This document shows, one piece after another, positions 7,116 to 63,127 of a stretch of 64,000 nucleotides of DNA; position 1 is the stretch's first letter; each line of letters opens with the position of its first letter. The DNA lies in contig JABCYQ010000002.1 of NCBI GenBank assembly GCA_013290125.1, positions 1-64,000 of the forward strand, written 5' to 3'. A program made the position numbers and the translations under genes. The notes under the pieces were generated by a model. It was given only the letters and a program-made list of their open reading frames with translations. It was not told the origin of the DNA and made no database searches. This DNA is from Vulcanimicrobiota bacterium (GTDB taxonomy: Bacteria; Vulcanimicrobiota; Vulcanimicrobiia; Eremiobacterales; Eremiobacteraceae).

Positions 7116-7505
7116 GTGACGAAGATCATGGTCTGCACGATCGCTGCGATCGTTTTGTTCGCAGCGAGCGGGTGCAGGCACATCACACCTTCGTCTGCGC
7201 CCGCGACGCCGACGCCTGCGCCATACGCGACCGGAGATTATCCCGAGTACGGCTACGCACCGGATCTCTCGTGGGTCGCGGGCAAACTCTTCATCGGTCT
7301 GCGTGTTCCGCTGTGCACGTACGTGTTGTTCTCAAACGGGCGCGGCGCCGCATGGGGCGGAACATTCGCGTTGTCAGCGGCGCCCGGCATCTTGGACGGC
7401 TTGCATCCGGGCGATCACGTCGTCGTGCACGGTACGCTTTCGCCGGCGACGAAGAGCGGATGCGACGCGCGACAGTTCAATGTGACTCGCGCGGAGCGCC
7501 ACTAG
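7116..7505 (+). CDS. Small lipoprotein of unknown function
   Basis: A protein of about 129 residues. GTG 7116 is chosen because it gives a short lipoprotein signal (MTKIMVCTIAAIVLFAASGC) with lipobox AASGC at residues 16-20, so Cys20 would be lipidated. A Pro/Thr linker follows, then a domain with GKLFIGLRVPLCTYVLFSNG and HPGDHVVVHGTL, which looks like a small OB- or SH3-like beta barrel. The frame is open from GTG 7041, but that start would bury the signal peptide. It is followed 22 bases later by a membrane-protein gene and may be cotranscribed. Function unknown. Confidence 0.65.
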   Translation: MTKIMVCTIAAIVLFAASGCRHITPSSAPATPTPAPYATGDYPEYGYAPDLSWVAGKLFIGLRVPLCTYVLFSNGRGAAWGGTFALSAAPGILDGLHPGDHVVVHGTLSPATKSGCDARQFNVTRAERH

Positions 7506-7527
7506 AGACGGATTGGATCGTACAAAC

Positions 7528-7842
7528 GTGACGCAAAACTCCGACATCTTGCTCTTTGCATACGCGCTGATCGTGGTCGGGCTGACCATCGGGCTGCAGA
7601 TGCTCTACGTCGGCACGCGCGATCGGTCGATGTATTTCGCGGGTCGCGAAAAGCCGCCCGTGCTGCCCAAGCAACTGCGCGTAGCGGGAATCGTCTTCTC
7701 GATGTTCGGCGTCGCGATGCTCGCGGTCATGGCGGTGGAGGTTTTATCAGGCGCGGCCGGCACGAATATCGTGGCCTTCATCATCGCGACGGTAACGATC
7801 CCGCCGCTCGTCGCGTGGTACAACTCGCGTTTGATCGGTTAG
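7528..7842 (+). CDS. Small integral membrane protein, unknown
   Basis: A protein of about 104 residues with three likely transmembrane helices: LLFAYALIVVGLTIGLQMLY near residues 7-26, VAGIVFSMFGVAMLAVMAVE near 53-72 and IVAFIIATVTIPPLVAWY near 81-98. No family recognised. GTG 7528 gives a compact N-terminus (MTQNSDILL); a TTG at 7513 in the same frame is an alternative. It ends before the large palindrome at 7880-7948 that separates it from the convergent nuo operon. Confidence 0.65.
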   Translation: MTQNSDILLFAYALIVVGLTIGLQMLYVGTRDRSMYFAGREKPPVLPKQLRVAGIVFSMFGVAMLAVMAVEVLSGAAGTNIVAFIIATVTIPPLVAWYNSRLIG

Positions 7843-31922: not shown

Positions 31923-34376
31923 ATGCGGGTGACTCCCGACAACGGCGACGGCGGAGCGTTAGCAGACGTCGAAGCCGGGCTTTTGAAGCTCATCCACGTC
32001 GCCGCGCGCTCGGCCGACGAGAACGGCATATTGCGCACCGCCGCCGAGGGAGTGGCGGCGCTGCTGCGTACCACGTGCGTCATGATCGTCGCGCCGCCCG
32101 GCGGCGAAGGCCTTCGCATCGTCGCATGCGCAGGACCGCGGACGCTTCCGGCGGACGCGATAGGCGCGGAATGGCCGGAACTTTCCGCCGATCCGATGCT
32201 GCGTAGCGCGATCGACGGCGCGTCGGTCGTCGTCGAACGCGAACCCGGCTTCGGCAGCCCCGATGCTATGTTGCGCTTGCTGAGCGATTGGGAATCAGTG
32301 CGCAGCGCCGCGGCCGTGCCGCTGATGGCCGGAGCGGAGACGATCGGCGCACTCGTATTGTATAGCGACGAACTATCAGCGTTCGATATCCGACAGACCG
32401 ATGCGATGCAGTGGTTCGCACGATCCGTGGCCTCTGAAGTCGCTCGGCGTCGAGAGTTGTCGGCTGCTCGCGCCGAACGCCGGCGCCCCGACTCGCCGCG
32501 GATCTCTCGAAGTCTCGACCCGCGAGAGGTCGCGCGCAGCATCGCACAGGCGACGGGCGAGTTCGCCGGAGCAGCATTCGCGATCGCGTTCACGCTGGAG
32601 CGCGACACCCTAACCGCCGTCGGCGGCTGGAAGGAGCCGGGCGAACTGGGTTCGGCGAGCTACAGCATGACGGACCCGTCAGTGAATATGTATCCGCCGG
32701 TTTGGGCGGCGCGCGAGCAGCGAGTCGTGCGCGATGCCGATGTCGTGAACGATCCCGTCTGGTTGCGGCACGGTTGGGAACGCCAAGCTCTCGCCCACGG
32801 CTTTACCGAAGTCGTCGCGATTCCGCTCGTAGCCGGCGCGACGACCGTCGGCGCGGTCGCGATGTTCTTCGGGATCCCGCCGGAAGCCGAAGCAGACGAC
32901 GACGTGTTGCTGCGGCTCGGCTTTCAAGGCGCTGAGGCGCTCATGGCGGCGCGCCGCTACGGTCGCACGGCGCTTGCAGCCGGCGTGCTCGAACGCCTTC
33001 TCGGCGTCACCTCCGACGCCGTCGTCGAATCGGATGACCGCGGCATCATCACGCGCTGGAACGAAGGCGCCGAGCGGATGTTCGGCGTGACCGCGGGGAA
33101 CGCGATCGGCACGCCGGTCGTCGACTCGACACTCGTGCCTGACGATCGGCGCGAAGATGTCCGCGAGATGCTATCGCGCCTGTCGCGCGGCGAAAGCACG
33201 CGCTCGATCGAGATCAAAGGGCGCAATCGCGACGGTCAACCCATAGAGTTGCTCTTCACGCCGATTCCGTCCGGCGATTCGCGCGGCGACGGATTCGGAC
33301 TGGTCGCGTTCGGACGCGATGCGCCCGCGTCGCGCCTCACCGTCGAGCACCTTCGGCGCCAGAATCATGCACTTGGCGTGATGCGCGATGTCGCGCGAAC
33401 TTTTGCCCGCGAAGTCGGCCTTGCGGCGATCGTCCACAAAGGTCTGGACAAAGTCCTCGAAGTGCTGGGCTTCGAAGCCGGCCGAGTCTACCTCTACGCA
33501 CCGGAAGAACGGCAACTCGTTCCGCTCGCCTCCCGGGGCTTTGTGGACGGATCGGCTGCGCCGATCGCCGTGCCCGCCTCGCCAACAGGTGAAGAGGGAG
33601 CGGCTGCATTCAGCGTGATCTATCGCCAGACGGTCATTCTAGGACAGAAAGATCTGCGGCGGATCGAAGCGCCGAATTTCGAACAGCACGACGTGGACGA
33701 GCTCTCCGTTGCGCTTTCCAAGCCGCTGCTCGTCGGCGACACGGTCGTCGGTGCGATCCAAGTCTTTGGGTTCGGCGGGCGCGTCGCCGATTTCGAAGAA
33801 CAGAGCATGTTCCATGCCGTTGCGGACGAGCTCGGGTTCGCGATCCATAACGCACAGCTGCTCGAAGAGGCATCGCGCCTTGCGATCACCGATCCGCTCA
33901 CGGGTCTGTACAATTACCGCTTCACCCAAGACTTCTTGAAGAAACGGCTGCATGAAGCGCGCCGTCGCAAGCGCCCATTCTCGATCATCATGGCGGACGT
34001 GGATCGCCTGCAGTCGGTCAACGAGCGGCTTGGCCGGAGCATCGGCGACGAAGTGCTCCGTCAAATCGCGAACAGCCTAGCCGCAAGCGTGCGCGGATCG
34101 GATGTCGTCGCCCGCTACGGCGGCGACGAGTTCGTCGTGGTCCTTCCGGAGACGCAGCTCGGCGAGGCGCTTATGCTCGCCGACCGGCTTGCCGTGGCGA
34201 TCGCCGACGCCGAATGGCCGGAGCAACTCGGGGAAGAGCCTGTCACCGTCTCGATGGGCTGCGCATCATTTCCGGAGGCAGGCTCGCAGGTCAACATGCT
34301 CCTGCGCGCCGCCGACGCGGCGCTCTTCCAAGCGAAGCGGAGCGGAACGAGCAGCATCCATCCCCGCTTCGACTAG
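31923..34376 (+). CDS. GAF-GAF-PAS-GAF-GGDEF diguanylate cyclase
   Basis: An 817-residue soluble signalling enzyme making cyclic di-GMP. Order: GAF-like domains at about residues 20-165 and 195-345, a PAS domain at about 350-470 (VTSDAVVESDDRGIITRWNEGAERMFGV), a third GAF at about 485-640, then GGDEF at about 650-817 starting with ITDPLTGLYNYRF. The active-site motif GGDEF is intact at 733-737 and an inhibitory I-site RGSD lies at 724-727, five residues upstream, so product feedback is expected. No membrane helix; the sensors would read intracellular ligands or redox state. ATG 31923 is assumed; a nearby GTG is possible. Confidence 0.9.
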   Translation: MRVTPDNGDGGALADVEAGLLKLIHVAARSADENGILRTAAEGVAALLRTTCVMIVAPPGGEGLRIVACAGPRTLPADAIGAEWPELSADPMLRSAIDGASVVVEREPGFGSPDAMLRLLSDWESVRSAAAVPLMAGAETIGALVLYSDELSAFDIRQTDAMQWFARSVASEVARRRELSAARAERRRPDSPRISRSLDPREVARSIAQATGEFAGAAFAIAFTLERDTLTAVGGWKEPGELGSASYSMTDPSVNMYPPVWAAREQRVVRDADVVNDPVWLRHGWERQALAHGFTEVVAIPLVAGATTVGAVAMFFGIPPEAEADDDVLLRLGFQGAEALMAARRYGRTALAAGVLERLLGVTSDAVVESDDRGIITRWNEGAERMFGVTAGNAIGTPVVDSTLVPDDRREDVREMLSRLSRGESTRSIEIKGRNRDGQPIELLFTPIPSGDSRGDGFGLVAFGRDAPASRLTVEHLRRQNHALGVMRDVARTFAREVGLAAIVHKGLDKVLEVLGFEAGRVYLYAPEERQLVPLASRGFVDGSAAPIAVPASPTGEEGAAAFSVIYRQTVILGQKDLRRIEAPNFEQHDVDELSVALSKPLLVGDTVVGAIQVFGFGGRVADFEEQSMFHAVADELGFAIHNAQLLEEASRLAITDPLTGLYNYRFTQDFLKKRLHEARRRKRPFSIIMADVDRLQSVNERLGRSIGDEVLRQIANSLAASVRGSDVVARYGGDEFVVVLPETQLGEALMLADRLAVAIADAEWPEQLGEEPVTVSMGCASFPEAGSQVNMLLRAADAALFQAKRSGTSSIHPRFD

Positions 34377-59917: not shown

Positions 59918-60268
59918 ATGGAGATCCAGTTGCAGACGCTCGTTGACACGTATAATCAGGCAGCCGACCGCTTCAATTTGGCGCGGCTCGATTATGCTTT
60001 CTCGTATGCTGCGCCCGCTCCACCGCCTGCGCTTCGTCTGCCGTCCGACGTCGGTTCTTGGGATGCGGATCAGCGCCCTGTGACCGCGGCCGTGCAAAGC
60101 GTGCGTGAGTATTTCGAATTAGTTGTCGAAGGCGAATTGCACGCACCGGGTGACGCAGCCGCGTTCGAGCGCATGCGCGCTGCGGCGCTCGATCTCACGA
60201 AACGCTTCTTCCAAGTATCGCTCACGCAGCTCGGTATCTCTTGTGATGGGATCATCGAGTCCGACTGA
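59918..60268 (+). CDS. Hypothetical protein, 116 residues
   Basis: A soluble helical protein with no recognised family. It has a helical start (MEIQLQTLVDTYNQAADRFN), a Pro/Ala-rich stretch at about 31-42 and helices in the second half (AFERMRAAALDLTKRFFQVSL). ATG 59918 has AAGG about ten bases upstream. The 124 bases before it contain a GTGCCGCGGCAC palindrome and TTGACC, but no convincing complete promoter. Confidence 0.55.
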   Translation: MEIQLQTLVDTYNQAADRFNLARLDYAFSYAAPAPPPALRLPSDVGSWDADQRPVTAAVQSVREYFELVVEGELHAPGDAAAFERMRAAALDLTKRFFQVSLTQLGISCDGIIESD

Positions 60269-60299: not shown

Positions 60300-60325
60300 C
60301 TGAAGGGCCGATTTTATATCGGCCC
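60300..60325. repeat. Family A half-copy flanking the structured element (left)
   Basis: CTGAA followed by GGGCCGAT-TTTAT-ATCGGCCC. The stem base pair C-G of other copies is T-A here, a paired change. It lies 17 bases left of the structured element. Confidence 0.7.
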
Positions 60326-60341
60326 ACGTCATATCGCGCTC

Positions 60342-60464
60342 GCATCACCGGTTGATGTCGATAGCCGGGGCGTCTGAGGCGGCGAGAGCCGCCGAAGTCG
60401 AGCGGCGGAGCTCGATTATCCCGTCTCCCGCCGCGTCCCCGGCGCAGACATCGACCGGTGATGC
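60342..60464. ncRNA. Unrecognised 123-base multi-branch structured element
   Basis: An outer 18-bp stem (60342-60359 with 60447-60464, one T-G wobble) encloses an internal loop, then a second stem GCCGGGGCG (60364-60372) with CGTCCCCGGC (60434-60443, one bulged T). Inside are two hairpins: GGCGGC-GAGA-GCCGCC (60378-60393), which has a GNRA-type tetraloop, and CGAGC-GGCGGA-GCTCG (60399-60414). A 19-base single strand follows. No open reading frame is supported. It could be a structured RNA or a small palindromic mobile element; strand is unknown. I do not match it to a known RNA class. Confidence 0.45.
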
Positions 60465-60481: not shown

Positions 60482-60506
60482 GGGCCGACTAGCGTCGGCC
60501 CTTCAG
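60482..60506. repeat. Family A half-copy flanking the structured element (right)
   Basis: GGGCCGAC-TAGC-GTCGGCCC followed by TTCAG, in the inverse orientation to 60300-60325, so the pair brackets the structured element as the arms bracket the short spacer elsewhere. Confidence 0.7.
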
Positions 60507-60531: not shown

Positions 60532-60557
60532 GGGCCGATATAAAATCGGCCCCTTCA
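60532..60557. repeat. Family A half-copy near the GGDEF-HD-GYP stop
   Basis: GGGCCGAT-ATAAA-ATCGGCCC then CTTCA. It lies six bases from the stop of the minus-strand gene. Read on that strand it is preceded by no T run, so it is a repeat more than a canonical terminator, though it may still slow transcription. Confidence 0.65.
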
Positions 60558-60562
60558 AAACG

Positions 60563-63127
60563 TCAAGAAACTAGAGACGCGAATTGCTCCACCATCACCG
60601 GATCGAACTGTTGCCCTGCGTGCTTGCGCAGTTCGGCAAGGGCGGCTTGCCTGTCCATCCCCTTGTGATACGGCCGGTCATCGGTCATCGCCGAAAACGC
60701 GTCGATGATGCTGACCGCTCGCGATAGCGCCGGGATCTCTTCGCCGGCTAGTCCGCGCGGATAGCCGCGTCCGTCAAAACGTTCGTGATGATGCAGCACG
60801 GCCTGCGCGACATCCGCAAAGCCGGGGATGTGTTCCAACAGCATCGCCCCTATCTCCGGATGACGGCGCACGAGTTGCCGCTCTTCCGGAGTGAGACTGG
60901 TCGGCTTACAGAGCACGTGGTTCGGAATCGCGATCTTTCCGACGTCGTGAAGCACGCTCGCGCGAAGCAGCGCTTGCGTCTCGGTGGACGATAACGTGGC
61001 GATCTCCGCGAACCGCGCCGCGAGATGGTTCACCTGTTCGAGATGCGCACGCGTTGACGGGTCGCGTGCCAAAAGCGCCTCGAGCAACTCGTGCACCGGC
61101 GCGAAATCGCCTTGCAGATGGACCGTCCGTCGGGATACGGCGCTGCCGCTGCCGATCGGCACGCCGGCACGCTTGCTCTGATACAGCGCGGCATCAGCGC
61201 GCGCGATAAGGTCGCTTCCGCGCAGGCCGTCGCGCGGATATTCCGCGACGCCGATGGACGCGGTCAGCGGGATGCTCATCCCGCGCAGCTGCAGCACGCG
61301 GCTGTCCAGACCTTCACCGATGCGTTGCGCGGCGCGCAGCGCCTGCGCTTCGTCGCCGTCGGGAAGGATGATGAGGAATTCGTCCCCGCCGTATCGGCCC
61401 ACGATGTCCGATGCCCGACACGTCGCGACGAGCACCGAAGTGAGCGTGCGAAGCGCTTCATCGCCGGCGGGATGTCCGTAGTTATCGTTGACCAATTTGA
61501 AGCGATCGATATCGAGCATGAGTACGCACAGCGTGTTTGCGCCGCGCTCCGCACGCTTGATCTCTTCGTCTAACCGGGTCTTCAAATAGCGATGGTGATA
61601 GATGCCGGTCAGAGGATCGCGGTCGGCGCGGTTCTGCGCTTCGGCGAACATCTGGGCGTTTTGTATCGCAAGCGCCATCTGTTCCGCGATCGCCGACAAG
61701 AGCCGGACGGCGGTCTCATCGTATGCTCGTTCTTGATACGACTGCGCAGAGAGAACCCCCAAGCAACGGTTGCCGAGACGCAGCGGCGCCATAGCGATCG
61801 AGTGGACGAACTTTCCGTCGTAGTGCAGGCGGCGAAACGGTGCGGCATAGATCTCTGGCTGCGTCTGAAGGACGAGCGGTGCGCTCGCGCTCACGACGCG
61901 GAATGCGATGGACTGGGCTAGGGGCATGGGATCCACGGTGAACTCAACATCGCCCTGGACGCAGTACTCCATGGATAACATGACGCCGTCAGCCGATATC
62001 AGCCCGACGAAGAAAACCGTCGCGTCCATCGCGCGCCGGACTTCACGACAAACGGTTTGATAGAGCGAGCGAAGGCTGAGCTGCGCGGAGAGCGCCCGCG
62101 AGACCTCGGCCAGCAACGTGAGCTCGCGGGTCTGCTGTTCGGCGCGCATGAGCTGGTGCGAGTGCTCGACCGCGATGGCGGCTTGCTCCGCGATGGCCAC
62201 GAGGAGCGTGAGGTCGCGGTCGCTGTACGCGTCTTGCATCGCGCTCTGCACGGAGATGACACCGATCAGGCGTTCGCCGATGCGCAAGGGCGCGAAGAGC
62301 GCGGATTCGACCGGCTCGCCTTCACCCATCAGCACGGACGGCATGCTCTGCCAGTCGCCCTCCGTCCGCAGTATGAGTGGGCGTCCTAAACGCAGTGCCG
62401 AACCCGACGCCGAACCATCGATCGGATATTCGCCTGCCTCGACGACCTTGCCGATGTCCACGCAGTACGGTATCGAGACCGTCGCCTTTTCCCAGTCCGC
62501 CAGGGCGATGAAAAACGTCGCGGCATCCATGATGCCGCCGACGAGCCCATGGACGCGCTCGAACAGCCGCTTGAGATCCCGCTCGGACGAAAGCGCACGC
62601 GCGGTGTCGAGGAGCACGCGCAGCTCTTCGTCGCGAGCCGACGCTGCTTCAAACGACGTCGCAGCATTGAGCACAAGCGAGGCGACATCCGCGGCGGCGA
62701 TGACGTCATCGACGCTTGGCCTGTCGAATGGCTGCCGGCCTTGCGCTCCGACGGCGAGAAAGCCGCGGATGCCGGACTCCGTTCGAAGCGGTGCGACGAT
62801 GAACGACGTCGGACCCGAAGTGGCGATATGGAGGTGCGTCAGCGTCCGGTGATCGGGCGAAGAGATCTGCGCCACGCCGCTCTGCAGCGCGGCGGCGACG
62901 AGCGATTCATCCACCAAGACGTCTTCTGCGCCGCGAGGTGCCGCACTGCGATAGACCGCTTGGCGAGCGCCGTCTGTGTCGACGGCGGTCAGCTCGAAGA
63001 AATCAACCGGCATCCGCTCCGCGAGCGCCGCCTGAAGCGCGGGAAAAAACTCCGCGCGCGGCCTGTCGACCGCCAACGCGAGCAACGACGAGTAGTACGG
63101 GGTGACGCGTGCGGCGTTTGTATCCAC
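60563..63127 (-). CDS. GAF-GGDEF-HD-GYP hybrid cyclic-di-GMP enzyme
   Basis: An 854-residue soluble protein carrying both synthesis and hydrolysis domains. Three GAF-like blocks occupy about residues 20-155, 175-325 and 335-485 (LLDTARALSSERDLKRLFERV; LLAEVSRALSAQLSLRSLYQTV). GGDEF follows at about 497-655 (DPLTGIYHHRYL; GRYGGDEFLIILPDG) with an I-site-like RASD upstream. The HD-GYP domain at about 665-854 is complete: SVLHDVGKIAIP metal His-Asp, RHPEIGAMLL, HHHERFDGRGYP and IIDAFSAMTDDRPY. Which activity dominates cannot be told. Start is GTG 63127. A paralogue lies immediately upstream on the same strand. Confidence 0.9.
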   Translation of the reverse strand: MDTNAARVTPYYSSLLALAVDRPRAEFFPALQAALAERMPVDFFELTAVDTDGARQAVYRSAAPRGAEDVLVDESLVAAALQSGVAQISSPDHRTLTHLHIATSGPTSFIVAPLRTESGIRGFLAVGAQGRQPFDRPSVDDVIAAADVASLVLNAATSFEAASARDEELRVLLDTARALSSERDLKRLFERVHGLVGGIMDAATFFIALADWEKATVSIPYCVDIGKVVEAGEYPIDGSASGSALRLGRPLILRTEGDWQSMPSVLMGEGEPVESALFAPLRIGERLIGVISVQSAMQDAYSDRDLTLLVAIAEQAAIAVEHSHQLMRAEQQTRELTLLAEVSRALSAQLSLRSLYQTVCREVRRAMDATVFFVGLISADGVMLSMEYCVQGDVEFTVDPMPLAQSIAFRVVSASAPLVLQTQPEIYAAPFRRLHYDGKFVHSIAMAPLRLGNRCLGVLSAQSYQERAYDETAVRLLSAIAEQMALAIQNAQMFAEAQNRADRDPLTGIYHHRYLKTRLDEEIKRAERGANTLCVLMLDIDRFKLVNDNYGHPAGDEALRTLTSVLVATCRASDIVGRYGGDEFLIILPDGDEAQALRAAQRIGEGLDSRVLQLRGMSIPLTASIGVAEYPRDGLRGSDLIARADAALYQSKRAGVPIGSGSAVSRRTVHLQGDFAPVHELLEALLARDPSTRAHLEQVNHLAARFAEIATLSSTETQALLRASVLHDVGKIAIPNHVLCKPTSLTPEERQLVRRHPEIGAMLLEHIPGFADVAQAVLHHHERFDGRGYPRGLAGEEIPALSRAVSIIDAFSAMTDDRPYHKGMDRQAALAELRKHAGQQFDPVMVEQFASLVS

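Follow-up and report, generated by a model that had tools for sequence, protein, structure and literature searches.

A dispersed palindromic repeat with a conserved three-way-junction core and variable arms in one family of Vulcanimicrobiota

Rickettsia palindromic elements (RPE) are repeats of about 105-150 bp that form long hairpins, fall into several families and occur both between genes and in frame within conserved protein genes (PMC2229807, PMC10969869). ERIC/RU-1 and other small MITE-like repeats span about 100-200 bp, with transcripts that fold stably and with intragenic fusions (PMC2229807). REPINs, which are associated with RAYT, are dispersed extragenic palindromes found as inverted doublets (PMC3116915). 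At inverted repeats, template switching between short arms homogenises the arms and inverts the spacer (PMC8604942), and it creates apparent compensatory changes in stems (PMC8794818).

Here we describe a repeat from Vulcanimicrobiota, a phylum for which we found no literature on such repeats. By description, the RPE would be its closest kind: the element is a palindromic repeat of about 100-150 bp with many intergenic copies, and it too has in-frame copies in conserved protein genes. Its host belongs to an unrelated phylum, however, its core is a three-way junction where an RPE is one long hairpin, and it has outer arms unconserved in sequence, head-to-head composites and in-place inversion; we would call it a palindromic mobile repeat and do not file it as an RPE. 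ERIC/RU-1 and the small MITE-like repeats match it in size (about 100-200 bp), stable folds and intragenic fusion, but those listed mostly carry short terminal inverted repeats, often with TA or target duplications, none of which could be defined for the element. Dispersed palindromes, inverted doublets and extragenic sites are shared with REPINs, whereas the element is larger, branched and unlinked to RAYT, and the REPs of its genome are a separate repeat.

The analysis centres on one copy in the window, by which we mean the whole stretch of 64,000 nucleotides that was analysed. Its parts and surroundings, together with two loci elsewhere, are:

60342-60464, + strand: whole element, a copy of the three-way-junction palindromic repeat (covariance model R1, fold)
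60342-60359, + strand: 5' arm of P0, the variable outer stem; pairs with 60447-60464, with both-sided changes across copies
60364-60370, + strand: 5' side of the inner stem P1, GCCGGGG; pairs with 60437-60443
60371-60400, + strand: P2 hairpin with a GNRA (GAGA) tetraloop and a tandem G.A internal loop (fold)
60402-60434, + strand: P3 hairpin with a 19-base loop carrying a conserved UCCCGA-type motif (fold)
60437-60443, + strand: 3' side of P1, CCCCGGC; pairs with 60364-60370
60447-60464, + strand: 3' arm of P0; pairs with 60342-60359, with both-sided changes across copies
60301-60325, no strand: REP left of the element, TGAAG-tagged, separate from it (pattern search)
60482-60506, no strand: REP right of the element, in the opposite tag orientation, separate from it (pattern search)
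60532-60558, no strand: further REP, separate from the element (pattern search)
59918-60268, + strand: upstream flanking gene, 116 aa, pointing at the element (ORF, codon score)
60563-63127, - strand: downstream flanking gene, 854 aa, pointing at the element (ORF, codon score)
L053:1642-1765 and about 20 further places in G000: repeat B, almost always in a head-to-head pair with the element
L075 (G000:C26:289-549): RAYT locus, surrounded by REPs

A preliminary description of this DNA had proposed a 123-base branched structure, and most of its anatomy is borne out. The 18-bp outer stem pairs perfectly, the two hairpins both appear in the fold and are mutually compatible, one of them capped by GAGA, and the 19-base single strand is the loop of the second hairpin (60409-60427); the inner stem is present as well, but with 7 bp (GCCGGGG/CCCCGGC) instead of 9. 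Within its 30 positions, P2 of this copy is a 6-bp hairpin below the GAGA cap, and P3 has 7 perfect bp enclosing its loop. The minimum free energy of the element is -85.2 kcal/mol, compared with -52.1 +/- 3.6 kcal/mol for dinucleotide shuffles (z -9.3); none of 200 shuffles was as stable, which rules out a chance fold, so that the element survives the shuffle test that the description had named as a possible refutation. The element also lies far below all 639 other 123-base segments sampled in the stretch (mean -44.6, best -68.6), and the view of it as highly ordered holds. The lack of coding signal is confirmed for this copy, although relatives inside genes occupy open frames.

From 43 copies we built an alignment and, with it, a covariance model (R1). 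The window copy scores 126.9 bits (E 7.7e-29) and is the only clear one in the window; a second match, below threshold and within a coding gene at 32799, looks like chance. Of the 36 matches that a DNA search gave in the host genome, about 27 are near-complete copies (83-100% identity) and the rest fragments; R1 finds 30 there, and the number of copies in the host is put at about 27-30. Across the 14 genomes examined from the host family of Vulcanimicrobiota (Eremiobacterota), R1 has about 95 matches, spread over 10 genomes: 30 in the host, 16 in G004, 12 in G011, 10 each in G001 and G013, and fewer elsewhere. Genera g1, g3, g4 and g5 are positive and genomes G003, G007, G008 and G009 negative, and among 149 genomes of the phylum only one weak further match turned up. 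As far as searched, the element family is confined to this single family of the phylum. For 78 of 80 copies the core has its nearest relative in the genus of the copy itself; the copies form genus-specific subfamilies, and we conclude that they spread after the genera split. Nothing in Rfam matches the element, even at permissive thresholds, and a known RNA family was rejected on that result; the label "undescribed" holds. Plasmid and phage collections lacked the element and viral contigs lacked an exact core match; carriage by any of these was discarded on these empty searches.

Across copies, the constant part is a core of about 85 bases in which P1, P2 and P3 form a three-way junction closed by P0. 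Its joints GAG and GU are nearly invariant, the P2 tetraloop positions are about 96% conserved and the C positions of the P3 loop 88-98%. The P0 arms, by comparison, vary freely in sequence between copies, even within one genome (columns 36-88% conserved), and are unrelated between genera, yet stay complementary; the conserved terminal inverted repeats that define a classical MITE are absent from them. Covariation is strong, and with so many copies the element also survives the other refutation that the description had proposed: 36 of 42 pairs have changed on both sides, including 5 of 7 in P1 (alignment A1), 7 of 10 in P2 and 7 of 8 in P3, and 208 cells stand against 63 in shuffled alignments, with slid controls far lower. 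Covariation beyond shuffles is what a structured non-coding RNA is expected to show. On the + strand G.U exceeds A.C, by 89 to 47 in raw counts and by 56 to 29 in collapsed events (p 0.005), an excess confined to P0 and P3 and lacking in P1 and P2. We take this as moderate evidence for single-stranded folding of the + strand, as RNA or ssDNA. One copy in G011 (L122:2972-3067) lacks the entire P2 hairpin, which its ortholog in G004 (L109) retains.

The description had also noted palindromic repeats on either side of the element, and these are present (60305-60324, 60482-60500, 60532-60551). Its proposal that the element had been inserted into one of them fails: the flanking palindromes are complete REPs whose loops differ between the two sides, and orthologous sister-species sites without the element hold a single REP or none. 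These two results, together with the linkage of the REP to RAYT, rule out insertion into a REP. The window contains nine REPs (7922, 27801, 36864, 36900, 50790, 52679, 60305, 60482, 60532). They belong to a system of TGAAG-tagged GGGCCGA..TCGGCCC palindromes that surround, with four copies upstream and three downstream, the genome's single gene for a REP-associated tyrosine transposase; this gene scores above the cut-off of the NCBI model. Core motifs of the element are absent from the sequence around that locus. The flanking palindromes are ordinary REPs, independent of the element.

Many copies are paired. In genera g3 and g4 two copies often stand head to head, (-)(+), with 6-45 bases between them. 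In the host genome about 18 of 27 complete copies are partnered head to head with repeat B (GCATGCCC..GCGAGGCGTTGAACGAGGAGCGG..GCGTCCTCGCGGGGCATGC); the window copy is solitary. Repeat B matches R1 weakly, resembles the element in its outer stem, inner stem and CGT..GCGT joint, folds with a z of only -2.6, and may be a distant relative. We also observed a near-perfect giant hairpin of two half elements, matching R1 on both strands, at L070:1487-1641 (G001:C23:167790-167925).

The window copy sits in a convergent gap whose downstream gene looks like a GGDEF/HD-GYP protein, to judge by eye from its translation. Such sites are common: by gene calls that we made from codon-usage scoring, independent of curated annotation, 70 intergenic copies occupy 36 convergent, 32 tandem and 2 divergent gaps, and other gaps of at least 50 bases at the same loci divide into 3, 32 and 29. 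Copies favour sites between convergent genes and avoid promoters. In tandem gaps their orientation relative to the co-directional genes is even (14 vs 18, p 0.6). No gene family recurs beside the copies, and a dedicated neighbour gene as mobiliser was discarded on that ground.

Sister species differ in which sites are occupied. The element at three G000 sites (L041, L055, L048) is lacking at the orthologous sites of G001, and at the window site, where the orthologous flanks of both sides are present, G001 has repeat B with A-like remnants instead. The empty sites are too diverged for a target-site duplication to be read, and a comparison that was not systematic showed no constant one. At the G001 site orthologous to L048 (L131, about 7330-7550) lies a tandem array of another palindrome, GGCCCGATGTAGGGCGGACCTTTATGGTCCGCC.

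Where related species share a copy, its orientation often differs. We compared 16 locus pairs with the elements masked to fix flank orientation, and an alignment test of 15 comparisons found the element inverted in 7 and collinear in 8, with clear margins except for one distant collinear pair (L029/L107). In L038/L065 and L036/L065 a match of about 275-310 bp is inverted between collinear flanks. Mutual best-matching copies occupy four inverted sites (L110/L120, L057/L068, L124/L021 and one member of L012/L027), evidence against their having been inserted independently. For the murF pair the best matches are not mutual, and its two copies may have inserted independently or be what is left after loss of alternate members of a pair. 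The inversions are read from draft assemblies, in which palindromes could in principle be misoriented.

Orthologous copies also show how the arms change. In P0, 46 pairs have changed on both sides and are still paired, against 29 one-sided changes; in P3 the counts are 1 and 10. Arm homogenisation and spacer inversion are what template-switch hot spots at inverted repeats display (PMC8604942, PMC8794818), and template switching explains both the behaviour of P0 and the inversions. It leaves the conserved unpaired core unexplained; we take the core to be the part that a mobiliser recognises. Two features set the element apart from the described hot spots: a whole dispersed family appears to evolve in this way, and the segment that would turn is 85-300 bases long, against the very short spacers of the template-switch inversions on record (PMC8604942), a difference that counts against inversion by this route.

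We consider it probable that the element is a non-autonomous palindromic mobile repeat whose core is recognised single-stranded by a factor acting in trans, and that template switching at P0 keeps the arms matched and flips the core. Under this scheme the trans factor would bind the conserved core in single-stranded form and disseminate copies, with P0 serving only as a closing clamp. DNA-polymerase template switching, or else recombination, involving the two P0 arms or those of head-to-head composites, would restore the arm match after mutation and turn the enclosed core around, and repeats would be tolerated where harmless, in convergent gaps and in the flexible linkers of proteins. The search for a mobiliser came up empty, the one Y1 transposase being tied to the REPs, and spread by reverse transcriptase is weakly opposed by the lack of an RVT_1 match in the 14 genomes of the family. 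These negatives, the lack of a recurrent neighbour gene and the failure to establish a target-site duplication count against the reading. More tentatively, and as less likely than not, we propose that a mobilising enzyme recognises the folded core as ssRNA or ssDNA, that the repeat has been inverted repeatedly, even in conserved protein genes, and that template switching rather than selection writes much of the covariation.

The strong covariation and conserved loops, the GNRA loop and tandem G.A that are typical RNA motifs, and the G.U excess on the + strand would all suit a structured RNA with a function, either cis-regulatory or a class of small RNA, that folds in the 3' UTR or in a discrete transcript and binds a protein or another RNA. 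We count the G.U excess against the mobile-repeat reading, as it hints that the folding of one strand matters. Nevertheless we regard such an RNA as unlikely: Rfam has no counterpart, the even orientation beside co-directional genes shows no strand preference, roughly one in two copies inside genes runs antisense to the mRNA, sister species differ by presence, absence and inversion, and template switching can generate P0 covariation without selection. It is the missing strand preference and the in-place inversions that lead us to favour a mobile DNA repeat over a discrete structured RNA. A short, dispersed palindrome with empty sites might also be a MITE that an undetected DDE transposase moves, using P0 as terminal inverted repeats; transposase-bound ends are normally conserved, however, whereas P0 varies even within one genome, and our unsystematic comparison saw no constant target duplication, so this reading seems decidedly unlikely to us.

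Movement by the RAYT transposase, as a REPIN-type element, gains from the presence of RAYT and REPs, the many REP-flanked copies and the head-to-head pairs, which are common as in REPINs (PMC3116915). Yet the palindrome surrounding RAYT is a different one (TGAAGGGGCCGA..TCGGCCC), the element's unit is much larger and branched, and no Y1_Tnp match was found in the three genomes of element-positive genus g4 (G005, G012, G013) despite 6-10 copies in each. On this distribution RAYT was rejected as the mover, and we give a REPIN-type origin very little chance. A dedicated site-specific recombinase that inverts the core as a switch would account for the 7 inversions in 15 comparisons, but the arms have no conserved crossover sequence, no recombinase family adjoins the copies and many sites lie between convergent genes with no obvious switch target; such a switch is about the least probable of the explanations considered.

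With the element, Vulcanimicrobiota gains a repeat family that is large and aligns cleanly, and in which orthologous copies in sister species make the presence, absence and inversion of one repeat unit visible. Searches for new RNAs should take it as a caution: it passes the usual covariation tests as a strong new RNA class, yet its arms often change together at orthologous sites, as DNA template switching would make them do without RNA function.

About 11 copies are in frame inside genes, among them murF, mfd, an error-prone DNA polymerase and an IMS-family (imuB-like) polymerase by Pfam and NCBIfam. In other genera with a readable junction, murF shares its last few bases with the gene that follows (ATGA or GTGA); in genus g4 (L147, L148 and L160, from G005, G012 and G013) the element lies at the junction, and one open frame joins murF to an F420-ligase-like domain. 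The fusion shows concretely how a repeat can make a single open frame out of two genes that overlap. The mfd copy is a less clean case of insertion, because the linker that holds it varies in length in all genomes. The mfd linker of G011 (L180) contains the peptide GERSSPTAI repeated in tandem, which suggests that repeats of other kinds settle there too.
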